Shown here piece after piece: positions 5,828 to 44,759 of a stretch of DNA of 47,093 nt. Origin of the DNA: Tindallia sp. MSAO_Bac2 (GTDB lineage Bacteria > Bacillota > Clostridia > Peptostreptococcales > Tindalliaceae); contig QYZZ01000088.1 in assembly GCA_003838145.1 (NCBI GenBank), forward strand, positions 1 to 47,093, written 5' to 3'. The position numbers were made by a program, and so were the translations under genes. The first letter of the stretch is position 1, and every line of letters begins with the position of its first letter. The notes beneath the pieces are model-generated. The model was not told the origin of the DNA, ran no database searches, and worked only from the letters and a program-made list of their open reading frames with translations.

Positions 5828-5929
5828 TAAACGCAAAAAACAGCGAATTAGTTCAGAGATGGCATTCAGTAAGCTGGCTGGCACGCAAAAAATTGATTTG
5901 ATTGTTTGTGAAAAAAGGAAGTGTTAAGG

Positions 5930-8230
5930 ATGCAGCATGGTTCAAAAGACAAGCTATATACACAATTAAAAGAAGCTGAAAAGAAGCTGAACGCAATCAC
6001 AAATTCTACAAACGAGTCGATCATTATGATGGATACTGAGGGCTGCATCTCTTTTTGGAATCCAGCCTCCGAAGCTATTTTTGGTTACACTGAGCAGGAA
6101 GCTTTGGGTGAGGATCTTCATTTGTTAATAGCGCCAAAAAAATACTTATCAGATCATCAGAAGGCCTTTGAACATTATAAAAAAACAGGAGAAGGAAATG
6201 CCATCGGTAAACGATTAGAACTGGAAGGGAAACACAAAAATGGAACCGTATTCCCCATAGAGCTTTCACTGTCGAGCACACGACTGCAAGATGGATGGCA
6301 CTCCGTTGGGATTGTAAAGGACATCACCGACCGCAAACAAACAGAAAACATGATCCAGGCACGAGTGAACCTTTTAACCTTTGCCTCCGGCCACTCCCTG
6401 GACGAAGTACTTCAGAAAACACTTGATGAAGCCTGTGCCATGGTCAACAGCCCAATCGGATTTTATCATTTCGTCAGTGAGGATGAAAAGACACTTACAT
6501 TAAAAGCATGGTCAACGGATACCTTAAACCATTTCTGCCAAATGGGAGATAAAAGAGGCATGCATTACAGCGTAGATGAGGCTGGCGTTTGGGTGGATGC
6601 TACCAGAAAAAGGCGTCCTGTCATCCACAACGATTATGCATCCCTGAGCCACCGCAAGGAAATCCCCGAAGACCACGCCTTCGTAAACCGGGAATTAGTG
6701 GTCCCCATCATGCGCAGTGAACGTATTGTAGCCATCCTTGGCGTAGGAAACAAACCAAAGGACTACACTGAAAAAGACATTCAAATTATATCTTTTTTTG
6801 CAGATGTTGCCTGGGAAATTGCAGAGGACAAATTCGATGAACAAAGGTTGATCGACTACACAAAGAAACTGGAAGAATCAAAAATCCAGGCCGAAGTCGC
6901 CAATCAGGCCAAAAGCCAGTTTTTGGCCAATATGAGCCACGAAATCCGCACCCCCATGAACGGCATTTTAGGATTTTTGCAGCTGCTGGAAGAAACTGAA
7001 AAAAGCGGTCAGCAGGCCAAATACATCGACTATATCAAAAACTCCACTGACACCCTGCTGTCCCTCATCAACGATATCCTGGACCTGAGCAAAATTGAAT
7101 CCGGGAACATGGAACTGGAAATGATTCCCTTTGATTTGCGGTCCGCCCTGGAAGATGCGGTGCTTCCCCAAAGCCAACGGGCTCAAAGTAAAAACATTGA
7201 CCTTAATTTATACACATCTCCCGGCCTGCCCCGGCAGTTGAACGGTGACCCCACCCGGTTGCGGCAGATCATTACCAACCTGGTCAGCAATGCCGTCAAA
7301 TTCACGGAAAAAGGCAGCGTCACCGTCCAGTGCCGACCTCTGGAGAGAACAGACTCAACTGCCAGGATTGAAATAAACGTCATTGATACCGGGATCGGCA
7401 TCCCAAAACCCGCCCAGGAAAAACTCTTTGACGCCTTCACCCAGGCAGACCTTTCCAATACCAGGGAATACGGCGGCACCGGCCTGGGCCTTGCCATCAT
7501 AAAAGACCTGACCCGCCTGATGAAGGGCACTGTTCAGGTTAGCAGCACCCCGGGAGAAGGCAGTACGTTTACCGTTACCCTGCCCCTGAAAATAGACGAT
7601 CGGCCAGTAAAGAACCTGGCAGATCAAAGAATTCTGAAGGGCAAACACATCGTCATTGTAGATGATACAGCCCTGAACCGGGAAATGCTGCGCAGCTACC
7701 TGGAAGAAGCCGGCTGTCAGGTATCTGAAGCCAGCCGGGGAAGGGACGCCGTCAGCCTGCTCATGAAATATAACCGTCAGGACCAGCCCGTCCACGCCAT
7801 CATTACAGATCAGCAAATGCCCGGCATGACCGGCGACGATCTGGCCGCCGTCCTGCAGGCCAACCCGGCGACCCAAAGGATCCCTCTGTGCCTGCTGACC
7901 TCAGCCGTAACTGCCAATAGCAGCCGACAGGCCAGCGAAGAAGGATTTCGCGCCTACCTGACCAAGCCGCTGCGACGACGGGACCTGTTGGACACCATGG
8001 CCAGCCTGGTCACCGAAGAGAAAGAGAGTCCTAAAACACCCCCCGGCCATGATTACCCGGCATACCCTGCGGGAAGCCCAGGATCAGAACAAGATCAACG
8101 TACTGGTCGCGGAAGACCAGGAAACCAATCGGGCCCTGGTGGTGCAACTCCTTCAAAACCGCGGCCTGCGCTGCGACGTGGTGGAAAATGGCGAAGAAGC
8201 CGTAGAGGCCTGCCAGCAGAAAGAATATGA
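5930..8230 (+). CDS. Hybrid sensor histidine kinase, PAS-GAF-HisKA-HATPase-REC1 (frameshifted from REC2-HPt)
   Basis: Cytosolic hybrid kinase. AAGGAAG at 5915-5921 favours the ATG at 5930 over the in-frame GTG at 5921, which overlaps that site. The domains are PAS (about 25-140, ending DITDRKQTE), GAF (about 150-305, with [19 protein letters not shown]), HisKA with [11 protein letters not shown] (His337), HATPase_c with DTGIGIP and GTGLGL, and receiver 1 with [10 protein letters not shown] (Asp627). After about residue 703 the frame runs into low-complexity Gly/Pro/Arg-rich sequence with no family resemblance and stops at 8230. The missing second receiver and HPt are encoded in the +1 frame from 8049. 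Dropping one C from the C6 run at 8039-8044 would fuse the two into one roughly 958-residue protein. The last 60 or so residues here are therefore probably a frameshift tail. Confidence 0.85.
8039..8044 (+). other. C6 homopolymer at a kinase frameshift junction
   Basis: A run of six C lies where the PAS-GAF kinase-REC1 frame stops making sense and just before the start of the REC2-HPt frame. Removing one C gives the uninterrupted reading [20 protein letters not shown], which leads directly into receiver 2. This could be a sequencing or assembly error, a fixed mutation, strand-slippage phase variation or translational frameshifting. The sequence alone cannot separate these. Confidence 0.7.
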
Positions 8231-8804
8231 CCTCATTCTGATGGACGTTCAAATGCCAGTGATGGACGGCCTGGAAGCTACGAGAAGGATCCGGAATCTT
8301 CCTCAGAAGCACCAGCCCATCATCGCCGCCATGACCGCCCATGCCATGAAAGAAGACAAAGAAAGATGCCTGGAATCCGGCATGGATGAATACCTGAGCA
8401 AACCCATCAACTTTGATCAGGTAAATGCTCTTCTTCAGGAAGGCATCCACGCAGAACCGCCACTGGAAGATGAGCCTGTTCCGGTGGGTTCCGTTGAAAC
8501 CCCCGAAAGAGAAGCCATCAACAACCTGATCCAGCATATTGGGTTTGAGGAAGAAGAGGCCAAAGAACTGCTGAATAAGGGGATCGAAAAGTGGCAGGAA
8601 CTGATCACAGAGGCCGAAAGGGCCCTTCAACAGGAAGATGTTGAAAAAGTCAAAAGCCATCTTCACGCTCTGAAAGGAGCTTCGGCAAATCTTTACATGA
8701 AAAAAACAGCCCAACTGGCAGCAAAAGCAGAAATCTTTGCCGCCACAGAGGAGACAAAAAAACTAAAGGAAGCCCTGGCAGAACTGCGAAAAACCCTCTG
8801 TTAA
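8049..8804 (+). CDS. Receiver-HPt phosphorelay module (REC2-HPt part of the upstream kinase)
   Basis: Receiver plus histidine phosphotransfer module in the +1 frame relative to the kinase at 5930. The receiver (about residues 17-135) has the acidic pair in [11 protein letters not shown], the phosphoacceptor in [11 protein letters not shown] (Asp66), a TAHAMK switch region and SKPINFDQ. The HPt (about 155-251) has [10 protein letters not shown] (His206). The stretch is nearly the same as the C-terminus of the first kinase in the window (receiver 2810-3130, HPt 3210-3519), so it was clearly once the end of a hybrid kinase. No Shine-Dalgarno sequence precedes the ATG at 8049; upstream is only a C-rich stretch. 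Independent translation is thus doubtful, and the module is more likely made by frameshifting or coupled re-initiation, or is a separated remnant. Confidence 0.75.
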
Positions 8805-13050: not shown

Positions 13051-13542
13051 ATGCGGGAGATCAGGATAGAAATTAACGGTTCAAATTATACTTCAAGGAT
13101 ATCGGATAATTTGACATTGCTGGATTTTATCCGGGAAGAAGCTGGAATGTCCGGAACAAAAAGAGGATGCGACAGTGGTCATTGCGGCAGCTGCACAGTT
13201 TTACTTGAAGGGCGGCCGGTATATGCCTGCATCACCCTGGCAATCCAGGCGGAGGGGAAGAAGGTGACCACCGTTGAAGGGCTTGAAGGAGATGCAGCAG
13301 GACAACTTCACTATATTCAGCAGGCCTTTATTGATCATTACGGAATTCAGTGCGGCTTTTGCACACCGGGTATGCTGATGGTGGCAGCGGCACTGCTGGA
13401 GGAGAAGCCATTACCGGAAACGGAGGATATTAAGGCCGCTATATCCGGCAATCTTTGCCGCTGTACCGGGTATACCAACATTGTTCATTCCATCAGAATG
13501 GCGGCAGAAGACAAGCTGAAACAGGAGGGAGGGGATGAATAA
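13051..13542 (+). CDS. Molybdenum hydroxylase small subunit, [2Fe-2S] protein
   Basis: Electron-transfer subunit (163 residues) of a xanthine dehydrogenase/4-hydroxybenzoyl-CoA reductase-type enzyme. The N-terminal plant-type ferredoxin domain carries CDSGHCGSC and a fourth Cys 11 residues on (GRPVYAC). The C-terminal helical domain carries the second cluster motif in QCGFCTPGM and LCRCTGYTNI. The frame is open from 12946, but MREIRIEINGSNYT at 13051 is the normal family start; the 35 residues before it look unrelated, and a GAAAGG/GGGG purine stretch precedes the ATG. The stop overlaps the next start as TAATG, so the two are translationally coupled. Confidence 0.93.
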   Translation: MREIRIEINGSNYTSRISDNLTLLDFIREEAGMSGTKRGCDSGHCGSCTVLLEGRPVYACITLAIQAEGKKVTTVEGLEGDAAGQLHYIQQAFIDHYGIQCGFCTPGMLMVAAALLEEKPLPETEDIKAAISGNLCRCTGYTNIVHSIRMAAEDKLKQEGGDE

Positions 13543-15866
13543 TGTCGAAATACAGAGTAGTAGGTAATTCTCACCCCGGATTATCCGTTGCGGAAATAGC
13601 CACAGGCCGTGGGCGATATACGGATGACTGGAAGCTTCCGGGAATGGTTTATGGGATGATTCTCAGAAGCCCTTTCGCCCATGCCATTGTCAAATCCATT
13701 GATACCAGTGAGGCTGAATCCGTACCGGGAGTATTGAAAATACTACTGCCCTGGGATGTGCCTTCAAAAAGATATAATTGTTCCGGTAACCCGCCATCTC
13801 CTCTCCTGATTCAGGATGAACCAATATTAACAGACCATCCCCTTCATATGGGGGATCGGATTGCTGCGGTGGCTGCCACCAGCCGTAAAGCATGCCGCGA
13901 AGCGCTGATGCAGTTAAAGGTGGAATATGAAGAGCTAAAACCTGTCTTTGACGTAATGAAAGCATTGGAAAAGGATGCGCCTTTGCTCCATCCGGAAATA
14001 GGAGGCAGCAATCTGGTTAAAACAATGGAAGCGGCAGAGGGAAATATCAATACAGGCTTTGAGGAATCTGACTATATATTCGAAGAAATATATGAAACAC
14101 CAGCCATTCAGAATGTTTCTCTGGAACCCAACGGCTGCATCTGTGATGCATCGGTACCTGGAAAAATGACAGTCATCAGCACATCCCAGACACCTTTTCA
14201 GGAAAGAAGAATCCTGGCGGATTTAATGGGATTAAGCGAAAATAATGTTCGGATCATCAAACCCTTTATGGGCGGCGGCTTTGGTGAAAGACAGCAGCTT
14301 CACAGCCAGCCGGTGGCTGCTTTGTTATCCAGGGCCACAGGCCGACCGGTGAAAATCATTCACAGCCGGGAAGAACAGATGACTGCATCCGTAGTTCGGC
14401 ACAGCACCCGTATCCGAATGAAAATGGGTGTGGCGAAAGAGGGTCTGATTCGGGCTATGCAGGTGGAAGCCTGGTACAATACAGGTGCTTATGCCACCCA
14501 TGGTCCTATTGTGGTGGCTGCCGGCAGCCGAAAAACAAATTATAGAATTCCGCACTATGAATTTAAGGGGCACTGCGTCTATACCAATGGCCCTGTCAGT
14601 GGGGCTGTGCGGGGCTATGGCAACCCGCAGATAACTTTTGCCAGAGAATCCATGCTCAACATGGTTGCCCAAAAGCTGGGGATGGACCCGATCGCTCTAA
14701 GGCTTAAAAACCATGTACAGACCGGCGACCGTTTGCCGGGAACAGACCATCCTTTACTTAGCTGTGCTGTGAATTCCTGCGTTGAAAAAGGCGAAACCCT
14801 CCGCAAGGCCATTGAAGAAGAGGACATGAAAAATAATGGACAGCAAGGTTTGTCCCATCCGGAAAAGAAAGCCTGGGGGGTTGCTTTTTGCTGTCATACC
14901 TCCGGTCCTTCCAATCGGGAAGGCATGAGCTCCAGTATTGTGATGGTGAATGATGACGGGTCAGTAAATCTACTGATGGGATCCGCCGACATTGGACAGG
15001 GAAGCGAAACCGTACTGGCACAGATAGCGGCGGAAGGCTTGGGGATTGGTCTGGAAGAAATATCCGTGACAGCTGCTGATACTGCAACAACACCCTATGA
15101 TACAGGAACCTTTGCCAGCAGCCAGACCTATGTGGGTGGAAATGCTGTGGCGCTGGCAGTTGAGGATGTAAAGAAAAAAATGATTCAAAGGCTTTCAGAA
15201 ATACGGAAGCTGCCTCCGTCGGATATTACTTTTGAAAATGGGCGTTTTACTGTTTCTGGCCCGGAGGGATTGGAACATCTCACCCTGAAAGATGCGACAA
15301 AGCAGATTACCTTTGGTGCCGGCGGCAGTATTATTGCTGGCAGCTCCAGTTATAAAGCCGTGGAGGCACCACCGCCTTTTGCGGTTTGCTGGGCCCAGGT
15401 GGCTGTTGACATGAAGACTTTAAGCGTCCGGCTATTAAATATCATTGAAGCTGTAGACGTCGGAAATCCGGTAAATCCGGAAAAGGTAAAGGCGCAGGTT
15501 CATGGAGGTGTCAGCATGGGGGTAGGATACGCCATGATGGAGGAAATCCAGGTGGATCAACGAACCGGGAAGCAGATTTCTTCAGACTTGCTGCATTATC
15601 AGACGCCCTTATCCCGGGATATGCCAGGGATTCATGTATGCCTGGCGGAAGGCTGGGAACCCAGCGGTCCCTTCGGGGCAAAAAGTGTGGGAGAACTGGC
15701 AACGGTGCCGGTGGCAGCTGCCATCACCAACGCCATAGCCCAGGCAACAGGAACTGCCATTACCCGTATTCCCATTACGGATGCTTTCCGGCCGGCGGCA
15801 TCCCCCTGGCCGAAGAGGGCTGCTACTGAGAGTCCGGCTGTTACAAGTGAGAAAGAAGGTGTTTAA
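13542..15866 (+). CDS. Molybdenum hydroxylase large (molybdopterin) subunit
   Basis: Catalytic subunit of 774 residues in the xanthine dehydrogenase/aldehyde oxidase/4-hydroxybenzoyl-CoA reductase superfamily. An N-terminal a/b hammerhead domain (about 15-130, with VAEIATGRGRYTDDWKLPGM) is followed by the molybdopterin-binding region with FMGGGFGER (about 244), VRGYGNPQ (about 353), a GSADIGQGSETVLAQIAAE segment (about 481) and GPFGAKSVGELA near the C-terminus. Glu718 in GELA is in the position of the catalytic base. It belongs to the CoxL-like single-polypeptide subunits, without fused FeS or FAD domains. Substrate cannot be read from sequence. It overlaps the small subunit by TAATG and is followed after 1 base by the FAD subunit. 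Confidence 0.93.
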   Translation: MSKYRVVGNSHPGLSVAEIATGRGRYTDDWKLPGMVYGMILRSPFAHAIVKSIDTSEAESVPGVLKILLPWDVPSKRYNCSGNPPSPLLIQDEPILTDHPLHMGDRIAAVAATSRKACREALMQLKVEYEELKPVFDVMKALEKDAPLLHPEIGGSNLVKTMEAAEGNINTGFEESDYIFEEIYETPAIQNVSLEPNGCICDASVPGKMTVISTSQTPFQERRILADLMGLSENNVRIIKPFMGGGFGERQQLHSQPVAALLSRATGRPVKIIHSREEQMTASVVRHSTRIRMKMGVAKEGLIRAMQVEAWYNTGAYATHGPIVVAAGSRKTNYRIPHYEFKGHCVYTNGPVSGAVRGYGNPQITFARESMLNMVAQKLGMDPIALRLKNHVQTGDRLPGTDHPLLSCAVNSCVEKGETLRKAIEEEDMKNNGQQGLSHPEKKAWGVAFCCHTSGPSNREGMSSSIVMVNDDGSVNLLMGSADIGQGSETVLAQIAAEGLGIGLEEISVTAADTATTPYDTGTFASSQTYVGGNAVALAVEDVKKKMIQRLSEIRKLPPSDITFENGRFTVSGPEGLEHLTLKDATKQITFGAGGSIIAGSSSYKAVEAPPPFAVCWAQVAVDMKTLSVRLLNIIEAVDVGNPVNPEKVKAQVHGGVSMGVGYAMMEEIQVDQRTGKQISSDLLHYQTPLSRDMPGIHVCLAEGWEPSGPFGAKSVGELATVPVAAAITNAIAQATGTAITRIPITDAFRPAASPWPKRAATESPAVTSEKEGV

Positions 15867-15867
15867 T

Positions 15868-16866
15868 GTGATTCAGCATGAATTTACCTGCCATTCCCCG
15901 ACGGATCTGAATCAGGCATATGCCTGGGCCGAAAGGATGAAGGACTCTATATATCTGGCAGGGGGAACGGACCTGGTACCACTGATGAAATATGGTGTCA
16001 AAAAACCGGAAAACCTGATCCGCCTTGACCATCTGCCGGAGCTGAAAATCATCGAAAAAAGAAAGGGAGGCCTTTACGTAGGAGCGATGCTCACCCTGTG
16101 GGAGATTCAGAGACATCCGCTGATAAAGGCGGAATTTCCCTCCCTGAGGCTTGCCTGTCAAAAAGTGGCTTCCCCGCAGATTCAAAGTCAGGGAACCCTG
16201 GGCGGAAATCTGCTTCAGGATCGTCGATGTATTTATTATAATCAGTCGGAGGAATGGAGAAGCTCTATTTCACTTTGTTATAAAACAGGTGGAACTATGT
16301 GTCACCAAGCTCCAGCTTCAGACTACTGCAAAGCCCTTTATTATTCTGATGTAGCACCGGTATTATGGAGCTTAGGTGCCCGGGCCGTTGTTTTTGACGG
16401 AGATGAAAAGTGGATGCCTGTAGAGGAACTTATTCAGGAACATGTGGAAAGAAACGGGCTCGTGAAAAGAGAAAAGCGGATTCTGAAAGGCTTCTGGATT
16501 CCGCAGCCGCCGGAAAGAGCGTTAATGAAGTTTGAAAAACTAAGCCTGAGAGGCTCTTTGGTATTTCCTGTAATGAATATTGCTTTTCAGCTGTCACCCT
16601 CCCTGGAAGGGATTCAGGGTTCTTTAGTGGTGGGAGGCACAGCTCCTGCACCGATTTTACTGGAAAAAACAGTAAAAAGAATGGAGCTATCCAAGGCATT
16701 TACTCCGGAAGAAAGAAAAAAAACCGGTGAACTTGCTCTGGAGGAACTGCTGGAAAAAAGCCAACTGGTAAGGGAAAGCGGCATTTCCCTCAAGGTCAAA
16801 AGAAATACCCTTAAACATGTGAGCACAGTGGTGGAACAACTAATGGAAACGGAGGTCTGGTCTTAA
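15868..16866 (+). CDS. Molybdenum hydroxylase FAD subunit with HcrB-type [4Fe-4S] insertion
   Basis: FAD-binding medium subunit (332 residues) with the two FAD motifs LAGGTDLVPLMKYG and QSQGTLGGNL and a CO-dehydrogenase-flavoprotein-like C-terminal domain. Directly after the second FAD motif is an insertion with Cys121, Cys137, Cys145 and Cys154, i.e. C-x15-C-x7-C-x8-C. As I recall, the extra [4Fe-4S] cluster of Thauera 4-hydroxybenzoyl-CoA reductase beta subunit uses Cys122/138/146/155, exactly the same spacing. Ordinary xanthine dehydrogenases lack this loop. The start is GTG 15868, one base after the large-subunit stop, with AAGGTG 7 bases before it; the longer frame from 15781 lies inside the previous gene. 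The stop overlaps the ammonia-lyase start as TAATG. Confidence 0.92.
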   Translation: MIQHEFTCHSPTDLNQAYAWAERMKDSIYLAGGTDLVPLMKYGVKKPENLIRLDHLPELKIIEKRKGGLYVGAMLTLWEIQRHPLIKAEFPSLRLACQKVASPQIQSQGTLGGNLLQDRRCIYYNQSEEWRSSISLCYKTGGTMCHQAPASDYCKALYYSDVAPVLWSLGARAVVFDGDEKWMPVEELIQEHVERNGLVKREKRILKGFWIPQPPERALMKFEKLSLRGSLVFPVMNIAFQLSPSLEGIQGSLVVGGTAPAPILLEKTVKRMELSKAFTPEERKKTGELALEELLEKSQLVRESGISLKVKRNTLKHVSTVVEQLMETEVWS

Positions 16867-18506
16867 TGGAAAAGAAGGCATTGTCAGCAAAAAAAGAGGT
16901 AGTTCTAAACGGGTGTGAATTAACCATTGAAGAAGTGGTGAAGGTAGCCAGAGAATATGCTCCGGTGTCTATTGATCCGGAGTGCAGGAAGGAAATCCTG
17001 AGAGTCAGGGAACAAATCGAGAAACAATGGATTTCGGAGGATGCGCCGCCGGCTTATGGTTTTAACACCGGGGTGGGAAAACTGAAATACACAGCCATCG
17101 ACCCGGAGCAAAATGATTTATTTCAGCATCACCTGGTGATGTCACATTGTGGCGGGGTGGGTGAACCACTGTCGGAAGAAGTGGTGAGGGCCACAATGCT
17201 GGTGAGACTGAATGCTTTTTGTCAGGGCGTTTCAGGATTACGGTGGGAAGTCATTGAACGGCTGATGACCATGCTTAACAAAGGGGTTCATCCGGTCATT
17301 CCATTACAGGGCTCTGTGGGAGCCAGTGGAGATCTGGCACCCCTGGCTCATATGGTATCTGTGTTGATTGGTTATGAAAAGGCAGAAGCCTTTTATCAAA
17401 GCCAGCGGATGTCGGCAAGGGAAGCTCTGGAACAGGCGGGCATTGCACAGGTAGCCTTTGAACTGAAAGCCAAAGACTGTCTGGCGCTTATCAACGGCAC
17501 CACGGTTTTTGCTGCTATGGCTGCTTTGAATTGTCACGACGCCGAAAAACTGGCCAACACCTGTGAAATTTCCGCTGCCCTCAGTTTGGAAGCCGTTCGA
17601 GGTGAGACAGCAGCCTTTGACCCGCGGATTCATAAGGCCCGTCGCCACAAGGGTCAGATAGACTGTGCTCATAATATCCGAAAACTGATAGAAGGCAGCG
17701 GCAGAGTGACGGAAGAAGCCAGAAAAATCCGGTTACCCCACGATGTGTTGCATCCGGAATACAAACCCCGGGTACAGGATTTATATTCCCTGCGCTGTGT
17801 TCCTCAGGTGCAAGGCGCTGTAAGGGATAACCTGGAATACGTACATCGGCTTATTGAAGAGGAGATCAATGCAGCTACTGATAATCCGCTGGTTTTTTGG
17901 GAGGAAGATGGAAGTCTGATGTTTTACAGCGGAGGGAACTTCCATGGACAATCCGTGGCTTATGCCATGGATATTCTGGCGATGTCCGTAGCGGAGCTGG
18001 GAAGTATATCCGAAAGAAGGACTTTTCAAATGTTGGATCCGACCCTCAGTTACGGCCTTCCCCCCAATCTGGCCGGCGAACCCGTGGGGCTGAATTATGG
18101 CTATGGCATTATTGCCTGCTCGGCTTCTGCTCTGGTTTCTGAGAACAAAACCCTGTGTCAGCCAGCCAGCGTGGATTCCATTCCCACTAAAAGCAATCAG
18201 GAAGATCATGTCAGCATGGCTCCCTGGGCGGCACGAAAAGCAGGGATGGTTATCGACAACGTTGAAAAAATCCTGGGCATTGAATTGATGATTGGCGCCG
18301 AGGCTATTTCTCTCACGGAAACATCCCTGGGATCCTTTTCCCTGGGGATCGGAACCAATGCTGCCTATCAGCGAATCCGCCAGGATATAAAGGCAGCCTA
18401 TAAGGATACCTATATGCCGGATCAGTCCCTTCCGGCTATTAAGCTGGTTAAAGAAAGGCATATCCTTCAGGCAGTGGAAGAGGCCGTTGATGGATTGAAG
18501 TTCTGA
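16866..18506 (+). CDS. hutH: Histidine ammonia-lyase
   Basis: MIO-dependent aromatic amino acid lyase (546 residues) that removes ammonia from histidine to give urocanate. The cofactor-forming triad is Ala153-Ser154-Gly155 in GSVGASGDLAPLAHM. Two selectivity positions favour histidine over phenylalanine or tyrosine: Ser-His in LVMSHCGGVG, and the Glu in SNQEDHVSM. YGFNTGVG supplies the conserved loop tyrosine. It is slightly longer than the usual 500-510 residue HutH because of a Lys-rich N-terminal extension. It is the last gene of the molybdenum hydroxylase operon (TAATG overlap), and no urocanase, imidazolonepropionase or glutamate formiminotransferase gene is present, which is unusual for a hut locus. 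The 94 bases after it contain no clear terminator. Confidence 0.9.
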   Translation: MEKKALSAKKEVVLNGCELTIEEVVKVAREYAPVSIDPECRKEILRVREQIEKQWISEDAPPAYGFNTGVGKLKYTAIDPEQNDLFQHHLVMSHCGGVGEPLSEEVVRATMLVRLNAFCQGVSGLRWEVIERLMTMLNKGVHPVIPLQGSVGASGDLAPLAHMVSVLIGYEKAEAFYQSQRMSAREALEQAGIAQVAFELKAKDCLALINGTTVFAAMAALNCHDAEKLANTCEISAALSLEAVRGETAAFDPRIHKARRHKGQIDCAHNIRKLIEGSGRVTEEARKIRLPHDVLHPEYKPRVQDLYSLRCVPQVQGAVRDNLEYVHRLIEEEINAATDNPLVFWEEDGSLMFYSGGNFHGQSVAYAMDILAMSVAELGSISERRTFQMLDPTLSYGLPPNLAGEPVGLNYGYGIIACSASALVSENKTLCQPASVDSIPTKSNQEDHVSMAPWAARKAGMVIDNVEKILGIELMIGAEAISLTETSLGSFSLGIGTNAAYQRIRQDIKAAYKDTYMPDQSLPAIKLVKERHILQAVEEAVDGLKF

Positions 18507-18600: not shown

Positions 18601-19059
18601 ATGAACGATCTGTTTGTATTTTTGATCCTTATGCTGGGTTTTGTTGTCGGAGCTTCTAAAAATACTCAGCGCTCCAAAAAGCGTTTACAGAAAGCTGAAA
18701 TACCTTTTTACAGAAAAATGGAGGCTGGCGCTGCTGTGCTACTGTTAGCTATAGTAGCAGTTTTGGGCGGAAACCATGGAGGTCATTACATGCTGGCACT
18801 GATGGCGGGAGCCTTTATCCTTTCCGGTGCTGTCTCTGCCGGGATTCATCCGGAGGGAATTTTGTATTTTCATGGAACTTCTGCCTTGTTGAGAATAGAA
18901 AAATGGGAAGAAATAAAAGAGGCAAAGATAGAGGAGACCAGTGACAAAACGGTTCTTTACTTTAAAGGAAAAAGAGGACAATGCCAGCAGGAATATCCCA
19001 AAGAGTGTGCGGGAGAAATCCGGCAACTGATCAGGAAAAATGCGCCAAGACTTTTGTAG
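18601..19059 (+). CDS. Hypothetical membrane protein
   Basis: A 152-residue protein I do not recognise. It has an N-terminal hydrophobic segment (about 3-18), a basic loop (KNTQRSKKRLQK), two closely spaced membrane helices at about 42-58 and 63-80, and a soluble C-terminal half (about 85-152) that alternates strands and helices, resembling the small PH-like domains of bacterial membrane proteins (GIHPEGILYFHGTSALLRIE, then WEEIKEAKIEE). The start ATG follows GTAGGGGG with an 8-base gap. Upstream, 18531-18575 holds promoter-like AT-rich sequence (TATAAT at about 18563) without a good -35 element. No link to the neighbouring operons is evident. Confidence 0.6.
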   Translation: MNDLFVFLILMLGFVVGASKNTQRSKKRLQKAEIPFYRKMEAGAAVLLLAIVAVLGGNHGGHYMLALMAGAFILSGAVSAGIHPEGILYFHGTSALLRIEKWEEIKEAKIEETSDKTVLYFKGKRGQCQQEYPKECAGEIRQLIRKNAPRLL

Positions 19060-19159
19060 TTAATGATCCTGGATGATAAGTAGTTTTGATTCGGCGATGA
19101 ATGTGATATAGTTAAATAGAGAGTTGAAGCGGTCGAATATTTTGCCGGGAGGAATGATT

Positions 19160-19762
19160 ATGAACAGCGAAATTGATGCAAGGGGGCTGCAGTGCCCGAT
19201 GCCATTAATAAAAACAAAAAAAGCCCTGGAGGCTATCGAAAAAGGGAACGTGACGGCTATCGTAGATAATGAAGTGGCAAAAGAGAACATTTCAAAATTT
19301 GCCAAAAGCATGGACTACAAAGTTACGATAAAGGAAAGTCAGGGGGACTTTTATATCGATATATTCAAGGAATATAAATACCGGGAGGTAAAAATGATAG
19401 ATCTGGAACCTGACTCAAATATCCTTGGGGATCTGGTGGTAGTAATTGGCAAGGACTACCTGGGGGAAGGTTCCCGGGAACTGGGCGAGATTCTGATGAA
19501 GGGCTATCTTTATACTCTGACGGAAGTGCAGCCACTGCCAAGGACTGTTATTTTCATTAACAGCGGGGTCAGGCTGGCCTGTGCCGGTTCAGAATCCCTG
19601 GATAACCTGCGAAAGCTGGAAGAATATGGGGTGGAAATTATGTCCTGCGGCACCTGCCTGGATTATTTCCGTATAAAACATGACCTGATGGTTGGCGGTG
19701 TCAGCAATATGTATACAATCGTTGAAGCCATGAATAAATCGAAAAACACAGTACAGCTTTAA
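19160..19762 (+). CDS. yedF: YedF-type selenium metabolism protein (TusA-like plus DsrE-like)
   Basis: Two-domain protein of 201 residues. Residues 1-70 are TusA/SirA-like with the signature Cys-Pro in DARGLQCPMPLIKTKKAL, the site that carries persulfide or selenide. Residues about 85-200 are DsrE-like and include GVRLACAGSESLDNL and VEIMSCGTCLDYF. This architecture defines the family annotated as sulfurtransferase-like selenium metabolism protein YedF, often near selenium genes. GGGAGG at 19147-19152 is 7 bases from the ATG at 19160 but only 1 from the ATG at 19154, so 19160 is chosen over both that and the frame start at 19124. It is followed by a DUF3343 gene, a combination known from clostridial genomes. 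Confidence 0.87.
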   Translation: MNSEIDARGLQCPMPLIKTKKALEAIEKGNVTAIVDNEVAKENISKFAKSMDYKVTIKESQGDFYIDIFKEYKYREVKMIDLEPDSNILGDLVVVIGKDYLGEGSRELGEILMKGYLYTLTEVQPLPRTVIFINSGVRLACAGSESLDNLRKLEEYGVEIMSCGTCLDYFRIKHDLMVGGVSNMYTIVEAMNKSKNTVQL

Positions 19763-28498: not shown

Positions 28499-30067
28499 AT
28501 GAGCCGAAAACGAAAACCGACGGTGATGAGTGCCATTGACATTGGTTCTTATTCTCTGAAAATGCGTATCGTGGAAATAGATGACTCAGGCAACATCAGG
28601 TTGCTGGAACGGGTGACAAAACCGGCAGCTCTGGGGAGAGATACCTTTTCCACCGGCAAGGTAAGCTATGAAACCGTGGAGCATATATGTGAAATTCTGA
28701 CAGGCTTTCAGCAGCTAATGCAGGAATATGGATCCAGGCATTATCGGGCGCTGGCCACCAGTGCTATACGGGAAGCGGAAAATCAGGAATACCTGATCGA
28801 TCAGATAAAACTTAAAACCGGACTCAAGGTGGAAGTCATTAACAATGCCCAGGAGCGCTATCTGACCTACAAAGCCATTCGGGAAAATCTGCCGGACCAT
28901 CAACGGGTCCAGGAAGAAGGGGTCATGGTGGTGGAGGTTGGTTCCGGAAGCGTTGAGATGACCATTTTTCACCAGGGACTCCTTCAAATCACCCACAACA
29001 TCAAACTGGGCCACCTTCGCTTAAGAGAAGTACTATCAGATCTGGAAAAACGAACCCTGGATTTTCCTCAGCTGCTGGAAGAATATATTGAAAGCCATCT
29101 GGATGTCATCGATTATATTAAAGAAACCTACGACATAAAACACTTCATCGCTCTGGGAAGTGAAATGAAAGCCATCAGCCGGCTTTGCAACGGCCCTGAA
29201 GCTCCGGAAGGGACAAACACCATATCTCTGGAATCCTTCGACGAACTATACCGGGAAATTCTGGAAAAACCTGTGGAATACATTGCGGAAGTATATCAGA
29301 TTTCCATGGATTTGGCCTCTATCCTCCTGCCTTCCCTGATGATTATGAAAAAATTTGCTCAGATGACAGAAGCAGATCAGTATTACACCCCCTTGGTATC
29401 CCTCAGCGACGGCATTGTATCGGATTTTATTGACCGCCGCTTCAACACCAGCCGCTTGCAGGAGTTTAACGAGGATATCCAGCATCAGGCCCTTAATCTG
29501 CTGAGAAAATACCATGCGGATGAAAAGCATGCCCTGGACGTGGAGGAAAAATCCAATATCCTCTTTGATGCACTGAAACGCACCCATGGCATGAAAGACC
29601 GGGAAAAATTTCTGCTGCAGCTGGCCTGCAAAATGCATGATATTGGTAAATTCGTCAACCTGAATAAGCATTACGAGCATTCCTATACCTTGATCAAAGC
29701 ATCACCTATCCTCAGCTTGTCTGAAGAAGAGCTGGAAATTGTAGCCAATGTATCCAAATACCATAGCAGCCGCACACCCCAAAAAAGCCACGAATCCTAT
29801 CTGCGACTTAAGGGGAAGGATCGGGTGACGGCAGCAAAGCTGACAGCTATTATCCGCCTTGCTGACGCCATGGACCGGAGCCACCGGCAGAAAATAAGCC
29901 AGATAAAAGTAAAACAGCAGGAGAAGGAGATGATTATCTCCGGAAATGCATTGGAGGATACCCTGCTGGAAGAGTGGACCTTTGAAGTAAAAGCAGAATT
30001 TTTTCAGGAAGTTTTTGGCATTAAACCAACACTGAAAATAAAAAGGAAGATGTCTAATGGAGCTTAA
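28499..30067 (+). CDS. Ppx/GppA-HD paralogue with altered active site
   Basis: A 522-residue protein with an N-terminal Ppx/GppA actin-like ATPase-fold region (about 8-310) and a C-terminal HD domain (KMHDIGKF, then a second His in SKYHSSRTP). The fold is clear, but key motifs are degraded relative to the paralogue at 32264-33781: DIGSYS instead of DLGSNS, EVGSGSVEM instead of DIGGASTEI, and NNAQERY instead of SGEEEAY, so the expected catalytic Glu is Gln118. It may be a regulatory or phosphate-binding protein rather than an active exopolyphosphatase; the HD site looks intact and could be a separate phosphohydrolase. The start ATG has AAGGAGGG upstream. It overlaps ppk1 by 11 bases, so the two are coupled. 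A TATAAT at about 28466 is a possible -10 element. Confidence 0.85.
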   Translation: MSRKRKPTVMSAIDIGSYSLKMRIVEIDDSGNIRLLERVTKPAALGRDTFSTGKVSYETVEHICEILTGFQQLMQEYGSRHYRALATSAIREAENQEYLIDQIKLKTGLKVEVINNAQERYLTYKAIRENLPDHQRVQEEGVMVVEVGSGSVEMTIFHQGLLQITHNIKLGHLRLREVLSDLEKRTLDFPQLLEEYIESHLDVIDYIKETYDIKHFIALGSEMKAISRLCNGPEAPEGTNTISLESFDELYREILEKPVEYIAEVYQISMDLASILLPSLMIMKKFAQMTEADQYYTPLVSLSDGIVSDFIDRRFNTSRLQEFNEDIQHQALNLLRKYHADEKHALDVEEKSNILFDALKRTHGMKDREKFLLQLACKMHDIGKFVNLNKHYEHSYTLIKASPILSLSEEELEIVANVSKYHSSRTPQKSHESYLRLKGKDRVTAAKLTAIIRLADAMDRSHRQKISQIKVKQQEKEMIISGNALEDTLLEEWTFEVKAEFFQEVFGIKPTLKIKRKMSNGA

Positions 30068-32219
30068 ACTGCCAAAAGAAAACCCCAAACCCCCGGAAAA
30101 ATATGAAAGCAGTCATTTTATTAACCGGGAACTAAGCTGGCTGGAGTTTAATCATCGGGTACTGGAAGAAAGCCGGGACAAAAACAACCCGCTTTTTGAG
30201 CGCCTCAAATTCCTGGCCATTGTGACCTCCAACCTGGACGAATTTTTTATGGTGCGGGTAGCCTCACTGAAGGATCAGGTTAACGCTGGCTTTGACAGGA
30301 CGGATCCCTCCGGATTAAGCCCGAAGCGACAGCTAAAGGAGATTTCGATAAGGGTTCATCAAATGGTTAAGGATCAGTACAACACCTTTAACAAAAGCCT
30401 GATGCCCCTCCTGAAAAAAGAAGGGTTCTTTTTGTTGCGCCGGGACCAGATTACTTCGGAGCAGCATTCTTTTCTGGAGGACTTTTTCAGAAAAATGATT
30501 TATCCGGTACTGACACCCATGGCTGTTGACAAAAGCCGGCCCTTTCCCCTGATTTTAAACCGAAGTCTGAATATAGCACTGCTGGTAAGGGAAAAGCCCA
30601 AAGATTTGCCAACCTTTGCCACGGTCCAGGTTCCGTCCATGATTCCGCGGATGATAGAACTCCCTTCCGAAGAAACAGGGCGCAGCTTTATCATGCTGGA
30701 AGAAATCATCATGCTGTTTGCCCAACGGCTGTTTTCCGGCCATCAGGTATTATCGGCTTCCCCCTTCCGGATCACCCGCAATGCGGATTTATCCCTGGAA
30801 GAGGAAGAGGCGAAGGATTTACTGATTGAAATAGAAAAATCCATTAAGCGCCGCCGATGGGGAGCTGCTATCCGGCTGGAAGTAGACGCTGACATGGATG
30901 CTTCCCTGTTGGACTTATTGCAAAGGGCCCTGGAAATACATAAAGGTGAAATATATTCCATAAAAGGCCCTCTGGATCTGAGTTTTCTCATGAAAACCAG
31001 CAAACTGGGAGGTTTTGACCATCTGCAGTTTGAGCCGGCAGAGCCAGCCATGCCGGAGCCTTTTATGGGAGAGGAAAGCATATTTTCTGTCATATCAAAG
31101 GGAGACCGGCTTTTGCATCATCCTTACGACAGCTTCGAGCCAGTGATCCGGTTTGTTCAGGAGGCTGCGGCGGATCCCAGCGTGTTGGCCATCAAGCAGA
31201 CCCTTTACCGGGTCAGTGGTGATTCACCTATTATCGCAGCCCTGGCTGAAGCAGCAGAAGCCGGCAAGCAGGTAACGGTCCTGGTGGAAGTGATGGCCCG
31301 GTTTGATGAAGAAAATAATATTATCTGGGCAAAGAAGCTGGAGCAGGCTGGATGTCACGTTATTTACGGACTGGTGGGGCTGAAAACCCACTCTAAAATC
31401 ATATTGGTTGTCCGGAAGGAAGAAGGCAGGATCAAAAGGTACCTGCATCTGGGAACGGGCAACTATAACGATAGTACGGCGAAGCTTTATACGGATATGG
31501 GTCTGCTGACCTGCAACGAATATTACGGCACCGAGGCCTCTGCCTTTTTTAACATGTTGACAGGCTATTCTCAGCCGCCGGATCTTTATAAACTGATTGT
31601 GGCGCCGCTAAACCTGAGAAAAACCTTTAACCGGTATATCCGACGAGAGGCAGACCATGCCAGACAGGGGAAAAAAGCAGAGATCATCGCACAAATGAAT
31701 TCACTGGTGGATCCTCAGATTATTACAGAGCTCTATGATGCTTCCCGGGCGGGTGTTCAGATAAAGCTGCTGGTACGCGGCATCTGCTGCCTGCGCCCCG
31801 GTATTCCGGGAATCAGTGAAAATATTGAAGTGCGCAGCATCGTGGGAAGATTTCTGGAGCATCCCAGAATCTATTATTTCCATAATGATGGCGAGAAAAA
31901 TATATATCTGTCCAGTGCCGACTGGATGACCAGGAACCTGGACCGGCGCATTGAGCTGATGTTTGAGGTAGAAGATAAAGGGCTGAAGACCAAAATGGAA
32001 GAAATCCTGGAGGTAATCTTCTCCGATACTCAAAAAACCAGAGTGCTGGGAAATGACGGTTTATACAAAAGGATTGACCGCCGTGGTAAAATAAAGCTGA
32101 ATGCTCAGGAATACTTTTTGGGTCGTTCAAAAGAACAAAGCAAGGCGGCCTGGAAAAGGGAAGAGAGCAGAAAAGTGGGAGAACCCATCACTTCCAGTGA
32201 TGACGTGAAAAAGCTGTAA
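30057..32219 (+). CDS. ppk1: Polyphosphate kinase 1
   Basis: Reversible polymerase of ATP gamma-phosphate into polyphosphate, 720 residues, normal length. The N domain begins FINRELSWLEFNHRVLEE and has TSNLDEFFMVRV. The catalytic half contains ADPSVLAIKQTLYRVSGDSP, the phospho-accepting His445 in GLKTHSKIILV, RYLHLGTGNYND, and the second active-site His609 in YYFHNDGE, with SADWMTRNLDRRIELMFEV near the end. The start ATG at 30057 lies within the preceding gene, with AAGGAAG upstream. It is flanked on both sides by Ppx-like genes, giving a closed synthesis/degradation module. Confidence 0.96.
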   Translation: MELKLPKENPKPPEKYESSHFINRELSWLEFNHRVLEESRDKNNPLFERLKFLAIVTSNLDEFFMVRVASLKDQVNAGFDRTDPSGLSPKRQLKEISIRVHQMVKDQYNTFNKSLMPLLKKEGFFLLRRDQITSEQHSFLEDFFRKMIYPVLTPMAVDKSRPFPLILNRSLNIALLVREKPKDLPTFATVQVPSMIPRMIELPSEETGRSFIMLEEIIMLFAQRLFSGHQVLSASPFRITRNADLSLEEEEAKDLLIEIEKSIKRRRWGAAIRLEVDADMDASLLDLLQRALEIHKGEIYSIKGPLDLSFLMKTSKLGGFDHLQFEPAEPAMPEPFMGEESIFSVISKGDRLLHHPYDSFEPVIRFVQEAAADPSVLAIKQTLYRVSGDSPIIAALAEAAEAGKQVTVLVEVMARFDEENNIIWAKKLEQAGCHVIYGLVGLKTHSKIILVVRKEEGRIKRYLHLGTGNYNDSTAKLYTDMGLLTCNEYYGTEASAFFNMLTGYSQPPDLYKLIVAPLNLRKTFNRYIRREADHARQGKKAEIIAQMNSLVDPQIITELYDASRAGVQIKLLVRGICCLRPGIPGISENIEVRSIVGRFLEHPRIYYFHNDGEKNIYLSSADWMTRNLDRRIELMFEVEDKGLKTKMEEILEVIFSDTQKTRVLGNDGLYKRIDRRGKIKLNAQEYFLGRSKEQSKAAWKREESRKVGEPITSSDDVKKL

Positions 32220-32263
32220 ATGGCAAGGTTCTTCAATATACACAGCTAAGAAAGGAAATAACC

Positions 32264-33781
32264 ATGGATAAAAAAATTGCCATCATCGATCTGGGCTCCA
32301 ACTCTATCCGAATGCTGCTGATGAAAGTTTATGCAGACGGCTCTTATAAAATGCTGGATCAGGTTAAGGATATGGTGCGACTCAGTGAAGGCATGGGGGA
32401 AGAACGAACCCTGAAGCCCATGCCCATCAAACGGACCATGAACACCCTTAAGCTTTTCCGAAAGCTGATTCAGGTACACAGGACAGACTATGTGATTCCT
32501 GTGGCCACAGCCGCTGTTCGTGGTGCTAAAAATCAAAAACAGTTTCTTGAAAAAGTAGAGGCTGAAACCGGCTTTCAGTTTCGGGTTATTTCAGGTGAGG
32601 AAGAAGCTTATTACGGATATATGGGAGTTATCAACACACTGCCGGTGGAGCGGGGTATTACTATCGATATCGGCGGTGCCAGTACTGAGATAGGCTGGAT
32701 CGAAAAAAATCAGCTGAAAGAAGCTGTATCTCTGGACTTTGGAGCCGTAACCCTCACCGAAAAATACATTGGCCGGGAAACCATTTCACCGGAAAAGGTG
32801 GCAAAGGTGGAAGCGTGCATAACAAAAGAGCTGGAAAAGCTGGAATGGCTCAAAGCTTTAAAGCACTACCCGGTGATTGGATTGGGAGGTACCATCCGTA
32901 CTCTGGCTAAAATGGATAAGCATAAAATTGGCTATCCCCTGGAAAGCCTGCATAACTACCAGATGACCTTTGACGAGGTGGAAGAGGCCTACAGCAAGGT
33001 GACCAGGGGGACAGTGCCGGAAATTAAAAAACTGCCGGGCATTAACAAAGACCGTGCAGATATCATTGCCGCCGGACTGGCGCCGGTGCATGCGCTTATG
33101 AAACGCATGAAAACGGAAAAACTGGTTATTAGTGGTAATGGTCTGAGAGAAGGGGTTTTCTTCGAACAGTACCTTAAGGAAATCGACTACCCAAAACCGG
33201 TGCTGGAAGATGTGCTTTTTCATTCGGCAGACAATATTATAAAAAACTTTGGCATGAACGAAAAACACTGCCATCGAGTCAAGAAGCTGGCTCTGGCACT
33301 TTTTGATCAGACCAGCGAGCTGCACGGGATGGGAGAAAACGAGCGAAAACTCCTGGCAGTGGCTGCTTTGCTTCATGATCTGGGCATGTGTATCGATTAT
33401 TATAACCATCATAAGCACGGATTCTATCTGGCACTGAATGTTCGCATCAACGGCCTGAGAAACCGGGAGCGGGTAATGGTGGCATACCTTGTAGGCTCTC
33501 ATCGGGAAAGCAACTTAAAAGAAGACTGGAAGCAGTTTGATATGTTAATTAAAGAAGCGGATATGGAAAAAGTGGAAAAAATGAGCATTTTCCTGAAAAT
33601 CGCAGAAAAACTGGACCGGAGTGAATATGGCAGCGTGGAAGATCTGGTGTGCTATATCACGGAAGAAGATGTTCAGGTGATGGTGAAGTCAGAAAACGCA
33701 CCGGAGCTGGAAGTCACCAGTGCCATGACCTTTAGCAAGGAATTCAAGAAAATGTACCATCGCAAGCTGTTTATTGTTTAA
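32264..33781 (+). CDS. ppx: Exopolyphosphatase, Ppx/GppA family with HD domain
   Basis: A 505-residue enzyme likely to release phosphate from polyphosphate and/or convert pppGpp to ppGpp. The canonical motifs are present: IIDLGSNSIRMLL (phosphate 1), ISGEEEAYYGY with the catalytic Glu, TIDIGGASTEIGW (phosphate 2) and GLGGTIRTLA. The C-terminal HD domain has AALLHDLGMCIDYYNHHKHG. It starts 44 bases after ppk1 behind AGAAAGGAAA and belongs to the same operon. In contrast to the paralogue upstream of ppk1, every active-site motif is intact, so this is the likely working phosphatase. Confidence 0.93.
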   Translation: MDKKIAIIDLGSNSIRMLLMKVYADGSYKMLDQVKDMVRLSEGMGEERTLKPMPIKRTMNTLKLFRKLIQVHRTDYVIPVATAAVRGAKNQKQFLEKVEAETGFQFRVISGEEEAYYGYMGVINTLPVERGITIDIGGASTEIGWIEKNQLKEAVSLDFGAVTLTEKYIGRETISPEKVAKVEACITKELEKLEWLKALKHYPVIGLGGTIRTLAKMDKHKIGYPLESLHNYQMTFDEVEEAYSKVTRGTVPEIKKLPGINKDRADIIAAGLAPVHALMKRMKTEKLVISGNGLREGVFFEQYLKEIDYPKPVLEDVLFHSADNIIKNFGMNEKHCHRVKKLALALFDQTSELHGMGENERKLLAVAALLHDLGMCIDYYNHHKHGFYLALNVRINGLRNRERVMVAYLVGSHRESNLKEDWKQFDMLIKEADMEKVEKMSIFLKIAEKLDRSEYGSVEDLVCYITEEDVQVMVKSENAPELEVTSAMTFSKEFKKMYHRKLFIV

Positions 33782-36796: not shown

Positions 36797-36863
36797 GCAA
36801 ATAGATGACAACACTCCCGCTGCCGAAAGGCCAGGCAAGCCCTGATGCGGGAGTTATTTTTTT
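36797..36863 (+). ncRNA. abiF-type small structured RNA ending in an intrinsic terminator
   Basis: A compact transcript of about 65 bases is predicted between a promoter and a T7 tract. P1 pairs ACTCCCGC (36813-36820) with GCGGGAGT (36847-36854). Inside are two small hairpins, GCC-GAAA-GGC (36822-36831) and CAGG-CAAGC-CCTG (36832-36844), forming a three-way junction. TTTTTTT at 36857-36863 follows P1, so P1 doubles as terminator stem. AbiF genes are known to be preceded by a conserved ncRNA motif, and position and size fit that. The next gene's ribosome site begins 3 bases after the T-run, so abiF translation depends on read-through or on a regulated balance with this RNA. Confidence 0.75.
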
Positions 36864-36880
36864 ATCCGGAGGTTTTGACT

Positions 36881-37873
36881 ATGAGAGAATATAATCATTT
36901 ATCCTTCCTTGATCAGGTGAATCTTTTTGAATTACGTGGAATGACAATCGAAGATAAGGGGAAGGCTGAACAAAAGCTCCGTTTTATTAGCTATTATAAA
37001 CTTAAAGAACTTGCGTACCCTTTTTATATTAAAAAAGAAGGAGAAATGCAATATACCAATATATCATTCGATACACTGATTAAACGGTATTATCAAGACA
37101 AACGTCTTAGAACGTCTATTTTATATTGTTTGGAAAAAATTGAAGTTGCGTTTAAAACTCGTTTTGGCTATCAACTTGGAAATAGGCATGGTGCTTACGG
37201 GTACCTTAACTTTTCAAATTGGTGCAATAAAGAAGAGTACTGCAAACACTATATTTCTGAAAAACAGGGTGTTTTTAAAAAAGATCTTAAAGATAAAGCG
37301 CATTTATATAAAAATCGCTGTATAGATGATCATTTTAATAAAAACCCTGAACTAAATAAGGATCCTACAAAAATTCCCATTTGGATGTTAGTAGAAGTCA
37401 TGACCTTTGGTGAGGTTTTGCAACTGTACAAACTGATGTCTAATAAGAACAGGGAAAGTATTTCCAATGAATTTAAATGCACACCAACAGAGCTTGAGTC
37501 TTGGCTGAATGGGTTAAAATTTGCCAGAAACAAATGTGCGCACAATGCTAATGTTATTGACTTAAAACTTAAGACCAAAACAAAGCTCAGAAATGAGTGG
37601 AAGAAATATATTTACATAGAGACTAAGAATAATCAATCTACCGGGGGACTGTCTGACATTATCATTCCGATGGTACACTTAACCACAATAATAAATGAAT
37701 CATTTCAATTTAATGAAATACAAAAAGCGATCAATACGATTGTTGATCGGGATGATGAAAGTGCAATTAAATTTGGATTTGCGAATGCACATGCTTCAGT
37801 ACATGCCATTAGTGATATGGGTGGACACTTTAAGCAAAATTACAACTCAAAACAAACAAAAAATCGTCTTTGA
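36881..37873 (+). CDS. abiF: AbiF/AbiD-like abortive infection protein (Abi_2, HEPN)
   Basis: Predicted anti-phage protein of 330 residues. The N-terminal half has the Abi_2 pattern: FLDQVNLFELRGMTIEDKGK, then AEQKLRFISYYKLKELAYPF, then IKRYYQDKRLRTSILYCLEKIEVAFKTR. The C-terminal half carries a HEPN ribonuclease-type motif R-x4-H in KFARNKCAHNAN (about residues 219-230). The start is ATG 36881, with CCGGAGG 8 bases upstream; the frame back to 36845 runs through the ncRNA and is not used. HEPN Abi_2 proteins are thought to cleave RNA on infection, and this group is regarded as related to the ancestor of Cas13; RNA cleavage here is inferred. It is more AT-rich than the genes to its left and opens a defence island continuing into CRISPR-Cas. 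Confidence 0.88.
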   Translation: MREYNHLSFLDQVNLFELRGMTIEDKGKAEQKLRFISYYKLKELAYPFYIKKEGEMQYTNISFDTLIKRYYQDKRLRTSILYCLEKIEVAFKTRFGYQLGNRHGAYGYLNFSNWCNKEEYCKHYISEKQGVFKKDLKDKAHLYKNRCIDDHFNKNPELNKDPTKIPIWMLVEVMTFGEVLQLYKLMSNKNRESISNEFKCTPTELESWLNGLKFARNKCAHNANVIDLKLKTKTKLRNEWKKYIYIETKNNQSTGGLSDIIIPMVHLTTIINESFQFNEIQKAINTIVDRDDESAIKFGFANAHASVHAISDMGGHFKQNYNSKQTKNRL

Positions 37874-37915
37874 TTTAATTTATAAACATTATAACGGCTT
37901 GAAATAAAACTAAAG

Positions 37916-37952
37916 CTACCTGAACTGTTAGCAAAAACACAGGTAGTTTTTT
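37916..37952 (+). terminator. Intrinsic terminator after abiF
   Basis: CTACCTG (37916-37922) pairs with CAGGTAG (37940-37946), followed by TTTTTT. It isolates the abiF unit from the CRISPR-Cas operon. The gap 37953-38075 holds a weak TTGACG at 38040 but no convincing -10 element. Confidence 0.75.
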
Positions 37953-38075
37953 GTATGCAAAAATTAAATTTTAAAAATAGTGAAAAAATAAAGGAAATAA
38001 TTGGCGGATATAGAATCAGTATATGAGGGGTATAACTATTTGACGTTAGGCCAATTCTGGAAATAGGTGAGATAG

Positions 38076-40538: not shown

Positions 40539-40563
40539 GCGATAAAAATGAAGGGGGGATAGC

Positions 40564-44077: not shown

Positions 44078-44085
44078 GGCTTTTC

Positions 44086-44739: not shown

Positions 44740-44759
44740 AGAGGGGAGGTCGGAGGTCG

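Follow-up and report, generated by a model that had tools for sequence, protein, structure and literature searches.

The question raised by this locus is which compound is handled by a molybdenum enzyme whose genes are joined to the gene for a lyase resembling histidine ammonia-lyase (HutH). The window, by which we mean the whole 47,093-nucleotide stretch of Tindallia sp. MSAO_Bac2 DNA that was analyzed, corresponds to contig C84 of a genome that totals 2.48 Mb (129 contigs, 97.5% complete). Between positions 13051 and 18506, a check of open reading frames (ORFs) and their junctions found four intact plus-strand ORFs, encoding FeS, molybdenum and FAD subunits and the HutH-like lyase. Specifically, a [2Fe-2S] small subunit of the xanthine oxidase (XO) family (13051–13542, in a frame open from 12946; Fer2_2 at 2.6e-31 and 108 bits, together with Fer2) is followed by a molybdenum-binding large subunit, here termed MoA (13542–15866; Pfam scores of 246 for MoCoBD_1 and 216 for MoCoBD_2), a FAD subunit with an HcrB-type loop for an extra [4Fe-4S] cluster (15868–16866, GTG start; FAD_binding_5, 118), and an MIO-bearing lyase, here termed HutH2 and predicted to be a 2-thiohistidine ammonia-lyase (16866–18506; Lyase_aromatic, 594 bits). 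The TAATG overlaps at 13542 and 16866 and the 1-base gap at 15867 agree with the layout described in a first-pass annotation of this DNA, and its suggestion that the four genes serve one pathway is very probably correct. A scan for promoter-like sites returned 7 against 6.6 expected, and scans for terminator-like sites (12 against 7.0 expected) and for inverted repeats upstream of the operon were uninformative.

The operon is followed (18601–19762) by two further genes, one encoding a small protein and the other a selenium-metabolism protein of the YedF type (TIGR03527, 227 bits against a cut-off of 110). Elsewhere in the window, a Ppx/GppA, polyphosphate kinase, Ppx/GppA cluster occupies 28499–33781, and the stretch 36845–45791 carries an Abi_2 (abortive-infection-type) gene and, after it, a CRISPR cas set that includes Cas3-like and Csd1 ORFs and others and that we take to be of type I-C. 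A hybrid sensor kinase frame with a receiver at its end (5921–8230) overlaps a receiver–Hpt frame (8049–8804), and the two frames possibly represent a single gene interrupted by a frameshift or assembly error.

Our preferred answer, to which we assign a probability of just under 0.6, is that the operon degrades 2-thiohistidine through thiourocanate to urocanate, with HutH2 performing the deamination and the HcrB-type molybdenum enzyme a reductive desulfuration. The substrate class would be ring-thiolated histidine with a non-methylated alpha-amine, and the MIO group of HutH2 would take NH3 from 2-thiohistidine (2-mercaptohistidine) to give thiourocanate. Low-potential electrons would enter the XO-family enzyme through the HcrB-type [4Fe-4S]/FAD subunit, and the molybdenum enzyme would reductively strip the C2 sulfur from thiourocanate to release urocanate and H2S. 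Canonical HutU, HutI and formiminotransferase, encoded on another contig, would complete urocanate breakdown. We infer the substrate, the direction of the molybdenum reaction and the electron donor, and the exact substrate is the weakest link of the proposed route.

The window lacks hutU, hutI and a formiminotransferase gene, as the first-pass annotation had remarked; for the genome as a whole the remark does not hold, since all three are located on contig C6. There, a single run comprises a BTAD/AAA regulator, hutH, a Na_H_antiporter-family permease, a racemase-like protein, hutU, hutI, ftcD and a cyclodeaminase, with NCBIfam scores above the cut-offs for hutH (712.6 against 539.15), hutU (457 against 375), hutI (469 against 298) and ftcD (448 against 221), and an FTCD_C score of 235 bits for the cyclodeaminase. 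The ORF between the permease and hutU (L116:13086–13928) is weakly histidine racemase-like (168 bits, cut-off 400). It follows from this complete locus that hut genes absent from the window are not absent from the organism, and that the window lyase is a paralogue. A plain histidine-to-urocanate operon is rejected on this ground, and the earlier assignment of the lyase as an ordinary HutH producing urocanate from histidine gives way to that of a divergent paralogue with an altered ring pocket.

The pocket was compared in an alignment of 134 lyases, with positions given in what we take to be P. putida HAL numbering. All seven HutH2 rows keep Tyr53, His83, the MIO triad (A-S/C-G), Asn195, Tyr280, Arg283 and Glu414. 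Position 382, by comparison, is occupied by Met in all 116 HutH rows and by Gly, Pro, Ser or Asn in 7 of 7 HutH2 rows, while position 410 is Lys in every HutH2 row and in none of the 116 HutH rows, 108 of which carry Ser. The residues of the window lyase itself are Gly414 at the Met382 site and Lys442 at the Ser410 site, and Lys410 is predicted from sequence to lie in the ring pocket. In ergothionase, both the MIO Ser and Met382 are missing (11 of 11 rows each), and Lys is found at position 386 in 10 of 11. Because its MIO triad is kept while Met382 and Ser410 are replaced, HutH2 looks like an MIO enzyme for a primary amine whose ring pocket is altered in the same sense as that of ergothionase, and this pairing of a changed pocket with an intact triad supports the 2-thiohistidine route. 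Assignment of HutH2 as an ergothionase is rejected on account of the kept triad.

Four further rows labeled as HutH lack MIO and have Met382, which completes the four possible pairings of MIO state and pocket type. These lyases form one clade (L149:2250–3746, L150:4556–6106, L152:7995–9539 and L153:7542–9086, all on the minus strand); a BCCT transporter is encoded near those of L149, L150 and L153, and an ergothionase also near those of L149 and L150. We regard the four as candidate trimethylamine-lyases acting on hercynine (histidine betaine).

Phylogenetic placement also sets HutH2 apart. In a tree of 61 of the 134 aligned rows, seven different HutH2 rows, including two near copies, form a clade with support of 100/100 that is separate from 43 HutH and 11 ergothionase rows. 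The window protein is 46–49% identical to the HutH of its own genome, and among solved structures it scores 190 bits with ergothionase 6s7j and 323 with HAL 6v6h. The clade is sparsely distributed: it is present in 3 of 297 genomes of the order (the window's own, G057 and G095), where the two relatives are 66–67% identical and the next lyase matches listed reach at most 50%, and the 331 class genomes contained no copy at E ≤ 1e-150 other than that of the window. Named genome contigs yielded two, in Rhodoplanes tepidamans and an Oscillospiraceae metagenome-assembled genome (MAG; 63% identity each), among the best 80 of 591 loci. With the Rhodoplanes protein as the query, 7 of 701 plasmid records exceeded 60% identity, all from Agrobacterium vitis or Allorhizobium ampelinum.

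With respect to the molybdenum enzyme, the HcrB-type character reported in the first-pass annotation is well founded. The best solved match of the FAD subunit is 1rm6_B, the beta subunit of 4-hydroxybenzoyl-CoA reductase, with which all four loop Cys residues align, and the best solved relative of MoA is the alpha subunit of the same enzyme (1rm6_A, 337 bits). This loop suggests reductive electron flow. All three subunits score below the NCBIfam cut-offs for 4-hydroxybenzoyl-CoA reductase (alpha 504 of 995, beta 172 of 405, gamma 187 of 257.8) and also below those for xanthine dehydrogenase (XdhA 633 of 780, XdhB 66 of 310, XdhC 175 of 217), and the latter scores, together with gene context, lead us to reject a purine hydroxylase. 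No XO-family NCBIfam model was matched above its cut-off by the operon, nor any small-subunit model by the [2Fe-2S] protein, and no model named thiourocanate desulfhydrase was among the NCBIfam matches obtained. The first-pass annotation had proposed that a complete hut operon elsewhere, combined with clear orthology to a characterized xanthine or nicotinate hydroxylase, would speak against a new pathway; the former was found, whereas the XO-family matches are all below cut-off, with no nicotinate model among them.

The company kept by this enzyme and its relatives points to a sulfur-bearing substrate. At E ≤ 1e-150, MoA is found in 3 of 297 order genomes, namely the window's, a genus mate (G047, 77% identity) and G057 (52–53%); the 331 class genomes yielded it once, in the genome of the window. 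The contig of the genus mate ends inside the molybdenum gene, and a search of that genome revealed no FAD subunit and no HutH2. Outside the genus, the closest MoA relative detected, on contig C20 of G057, belongs to a same-strand run of a sigma-54 activator, FeS subunit, MoA, FAD subunit, BCCT betaine transporter and ergothionase. The lyase of this run scores 507 bits with ergothionase 6s7j and 226 with the next chain, a HAL-type protein, and its FAD subunit also has the HcrB-type Cys loop.

A second molybdenum enzyme type, MoB, is about 32% identical to MoA, so that it is an assumption that the two catalyze the same reaction. HcrA is the top match of MoB, too, among solved structures (278 bits), and the HcrA match is consequently not specific to MoA; the three FAD subunits of MoB that were aligned lack the HcrB-type loop. 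MoB accompanies ergothionase at 7 of 9 loci (G016, G095, G487, G401, G445, G514 and G374), adjoins HutH2 and a Na_H_antiporter-family transporter on contig C27 of G057, and has neither lyase beside it in G526. Taken with the window and the C20 run, these neighbors show that each molybdenum type pairs with each lyase type. Among the 331 class genomes, ergothionase (E ≤ 1e-90) occurs in four and MoB (1e-200) in six, and all four ergothionase genomes have MoB directly beside it; the chance of this overlap is 3e-8 under the assumption, itself not valid, that the genomes are independent. In G374, a fifth MoB genome, the ergothionase gene is cut by the contig end and falls under the threshold. The ergothionase–MoB block lies between the end of hutH and hutU in G016 and at the end of a hutU–ftcD–hutI–fchA run in G095, and the corresponding locus of G004, from the same genus, is without it. 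This position within hut loci places the product of the block at urocanate. Both the block's position and the constant presence of MoB beside ergothionase in the class support the 2-thiohistidine route. Five plasmid neighborhoods of ergothionase matches had little bearing on the role of the operon.

The loci of HutH2 in other organisms give a more mixed picture. A molybdenum operon adjoins HutH2 at two of six distinct loci (the window and C27 of G057), which counts against the preferred reading, as does the lack of a transporter gene in the window operon. In G095, HutH2 is adjoined by a regulator and a Na_H_antiporter-type transporter, and MoB is at a separate locus. The Oscillospiraceae contig ends in HutH2 and carries transport genes of the branched-chain amino acid type and a Cucumopine_C protein; the latter, a Cucumopine synthase C-terminal domain protein (L035:4006–4587), has similar ORFs nearby. 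Cucumopine is made from histidine. In Rhodoplanes, the neighbors are a thiourocanate hydratase (1021 against a cut-off of 930; also above that of hutU, 713 of 375), a thiohydantoin desulfurase (594 against 440), a partial M20 hydrolase, UbiD and a TRAP transporter. In Allorhizobium, they are ErtD (745 against 600), ErtE (576 against 520, with a general Zn-hydrolase model scoring higher at 702 against 486), UbiD and UbiX, and neither hydratase nor desulfurase was found within the ~38 kb tested. UbiD adjoins HutH2 in both alphaproteobacterial loci (L034 and L154/L156) and is accounted for by none of the readings considered here. UbiD also follows a hydratase of the Rhodoplanes type in Thalassospira.

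That HutH2 and ergothionase replace one another both beside the two molybdenum types and in Ert-type clusters argues for the 2-thiohistidine route, and it is the partners, namely ergothionase, thiourocanate hydratase and thiohydantoin desulfurase, along with the HcrB-type FeS loop, that suggest a substrate substituted at position 2, probably with sulfur, and a reductive step. As a control, ten plasmid thiohydantoin desulfurase loci were inspected within 9 kb; five contained an ergothionase-like lyase (best match among the reference lyases, 28–40% identity), none HutH2, and five neither. No thiourocanate hydratase above cut-off was present in any of ten genomes (the window's, three genus mates, G057, G095 and four class genomes), each of which has a match to this model of ~290–322 bits, like the HutU of the window's genome; this is consistent with desulfuration to urocanate followed by HutU. 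G445 also encodes a second hydratase-like protein beside hutI (thiourocanate hydratase 598 of 930, hutU 632 of 375, S-methyl model 644 of 880).

The main rival, which we judge unlikely, is that HutH2 converts 2-oxohistidine, a product of protein oxidation, into 2-oxourocanate, which the molybdenum enzyme would reductively dehydroxylate to urocanate. Reductive dehydroxylation is known in the XO family from 4-HBCR and Ucdh, according to passages of PMC12771579, and the Allorhizobium cluster, lacking hydratase and desulfurase, fits 2-oxohistidine as well or better: a hydantoin-5-propionate hydrolase (ErtD) and ErtE with no desulfurase nearby would be expected if hydration gave hydantoin-5-propionate directly. 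The thiohydantoin desulfurase in the Rhodoplanes cluster speaks for sulfur instead, as does the pairing of both molybdenum types with ergothionase, whose known substrate bears sulfur. It is quite unlikely that the operon serves another ring-modified histidine with a free amine, such as an ovothiol-type 5-thiohistidine, S-methyl-2-thiohistidine or N-methylhistidine, with the molybdenum enzyme acting on the corresponding acrylate. The pocket change alone leaves the ring position unfixed, and NCBIfam does hold models for an S-methyl thiourocanate pathway; the Rhodoplanes neighbors, however, score as the non-methylated families, being under the S-methyl cut-offs for both the hydratase (777 of 880) and the desulfurase (274 of 450), and an N-methyl or 5-thio product would presumably not feed HutU directly.

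The first-pass annotation had favored a new branch of histidine degradation, in which HutH makes urocanate and the molybdenum enzyme oxidizes urocanate or a derived imidazole. Part of this survives, in that the lyase product, which would be an imidazole acrylate, is the probable substrate of the enzyme, judging from gene context. The oxidative step is unsupported, given the partners and the HcrB-type loop with its suggestion of reductive flow, and we consider the branch as a whole decidedly improbable. In its favor, window HutH2 passes the TIGR01225 hutH cut-off, albeit narrowly (551.8 against 539.15), a point that also counts against the 2-thiohistidine route, and the operon genes overlap or nearly touch. 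Two HutH2 orthologues, on the other hand, fall below the same cut-off (536.6 and 534.4), the ring pocket is changed, and a canonical HutH, scoring 713 on this model, is already encoded elsewhere in the genome along with a full hut locus. A coincidental operon of a redundant histidine ammonia-lyase and an unrelated purine or aromatic molybdenum enzyme would suit the low count of HutH2–molybdenum adjacency and the fact that neighboring operon genes can be unrelated, and is rendered very improbable by the independent pairing of two molybdenum types with two lyase types and by the constant ergothionase–MoB association in the class.

In terms of published chemistry, the 2-thiohistidine route gains from passages of PMC12771579 describing a gut XO homologue that reductively cleaves an aromatic C–S bond in ergothioneine catabolism. 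A thiourocanate desulfhydrase is named in passages of PMC13405746 and credited there to Feng et al. 2025 (JACS 147:257), and the same passages describe ergothionase as being without MIO. The conversion of thiourocanate to urocanate suggested by gene context is thus supported by these passages, and the molybdenum step is not new in kind. What could be new, and we offer this tentatively, is the activity of HutH2, as a so far undescribed MIO-type ammonia-lyase acting on 2-thiohistidine, and with it an operon that would bypass ergothionase, presumably under anaerobic conditions, to convert thiolated but not N-methylated histidine into urocanate and H2S through an HcrB-type molybdenum enzyme distinct from MoB, the type beside most of the ergothionases encountered here. 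No 2-thiohistidine ammonia-lyase is described among the literature matches listed, a weak negative as subscription literature lies mostly outside their coverage, and the literature passages and listings examined mention no natural source of free 2-thiohistidine, which counts against the route. If correct, the proposal would define a distinct family of lyases that currently carry the histidine ammonia-lyase label, the Allorhizobium record being an example, together with a free-amine counterpart of ergothioneine breakdown; it would also add a substrate to the range of MIO chemistry and a further potential source of H2S. We also suggest a simple code of two letters for HutH-like lyases, one for the presence or absence of MIO and one for Met382 versus a small residue plus Lys, that would predict the histidine derivative split.

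Compared with known systems, the operon shares with the gut ergothioneine pathway, as described in the passages cited above, an XO-family molybdenum enzyme and a lyase, which in the operon is predicted to yield an imidazole acrylate as well. It differs in having the MIO-bearing HutH2 in place of an MIO-less ergothionase, no betaine transporter and an HcrB-type FAD subunit, with the comparison to thiourocanate desulfhydrase being one of descriptions only. 4-Hydroxybenzoyl-CoA reductase (HcrABC) is likewise of the XO family, the best solved match for the large and FAD subunits and the bearer of the same four-Cys loop; its NCBIfam models are not satisfied by any of the three subunits, and context and presumed substrate differ. 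Relatives of HutH2 reside in clusters of the Ert pathway (thiourocanate hydratase, thiohydantoin desulfurase, ErtD and ErtE) in Rhodoplanes and Allorhizobium, whereas the ten genomes tested, including the window's, have no thiourocanate hydratase above cut-off. With HutH, HutH2 has in common the MIO triad, Tyr53, His83, Asn195, Arg283 and Glu414, and it departs in its separate clade and the replacement of Met382 and Ser410. Ergothionase (6s7j) and HutH2 are alike in the loss of Met382, the gain of a Lys near the ring pocket and their partner enzymes, and of the two it is HutH2 alone that keeps the MIO Ser/Cys.
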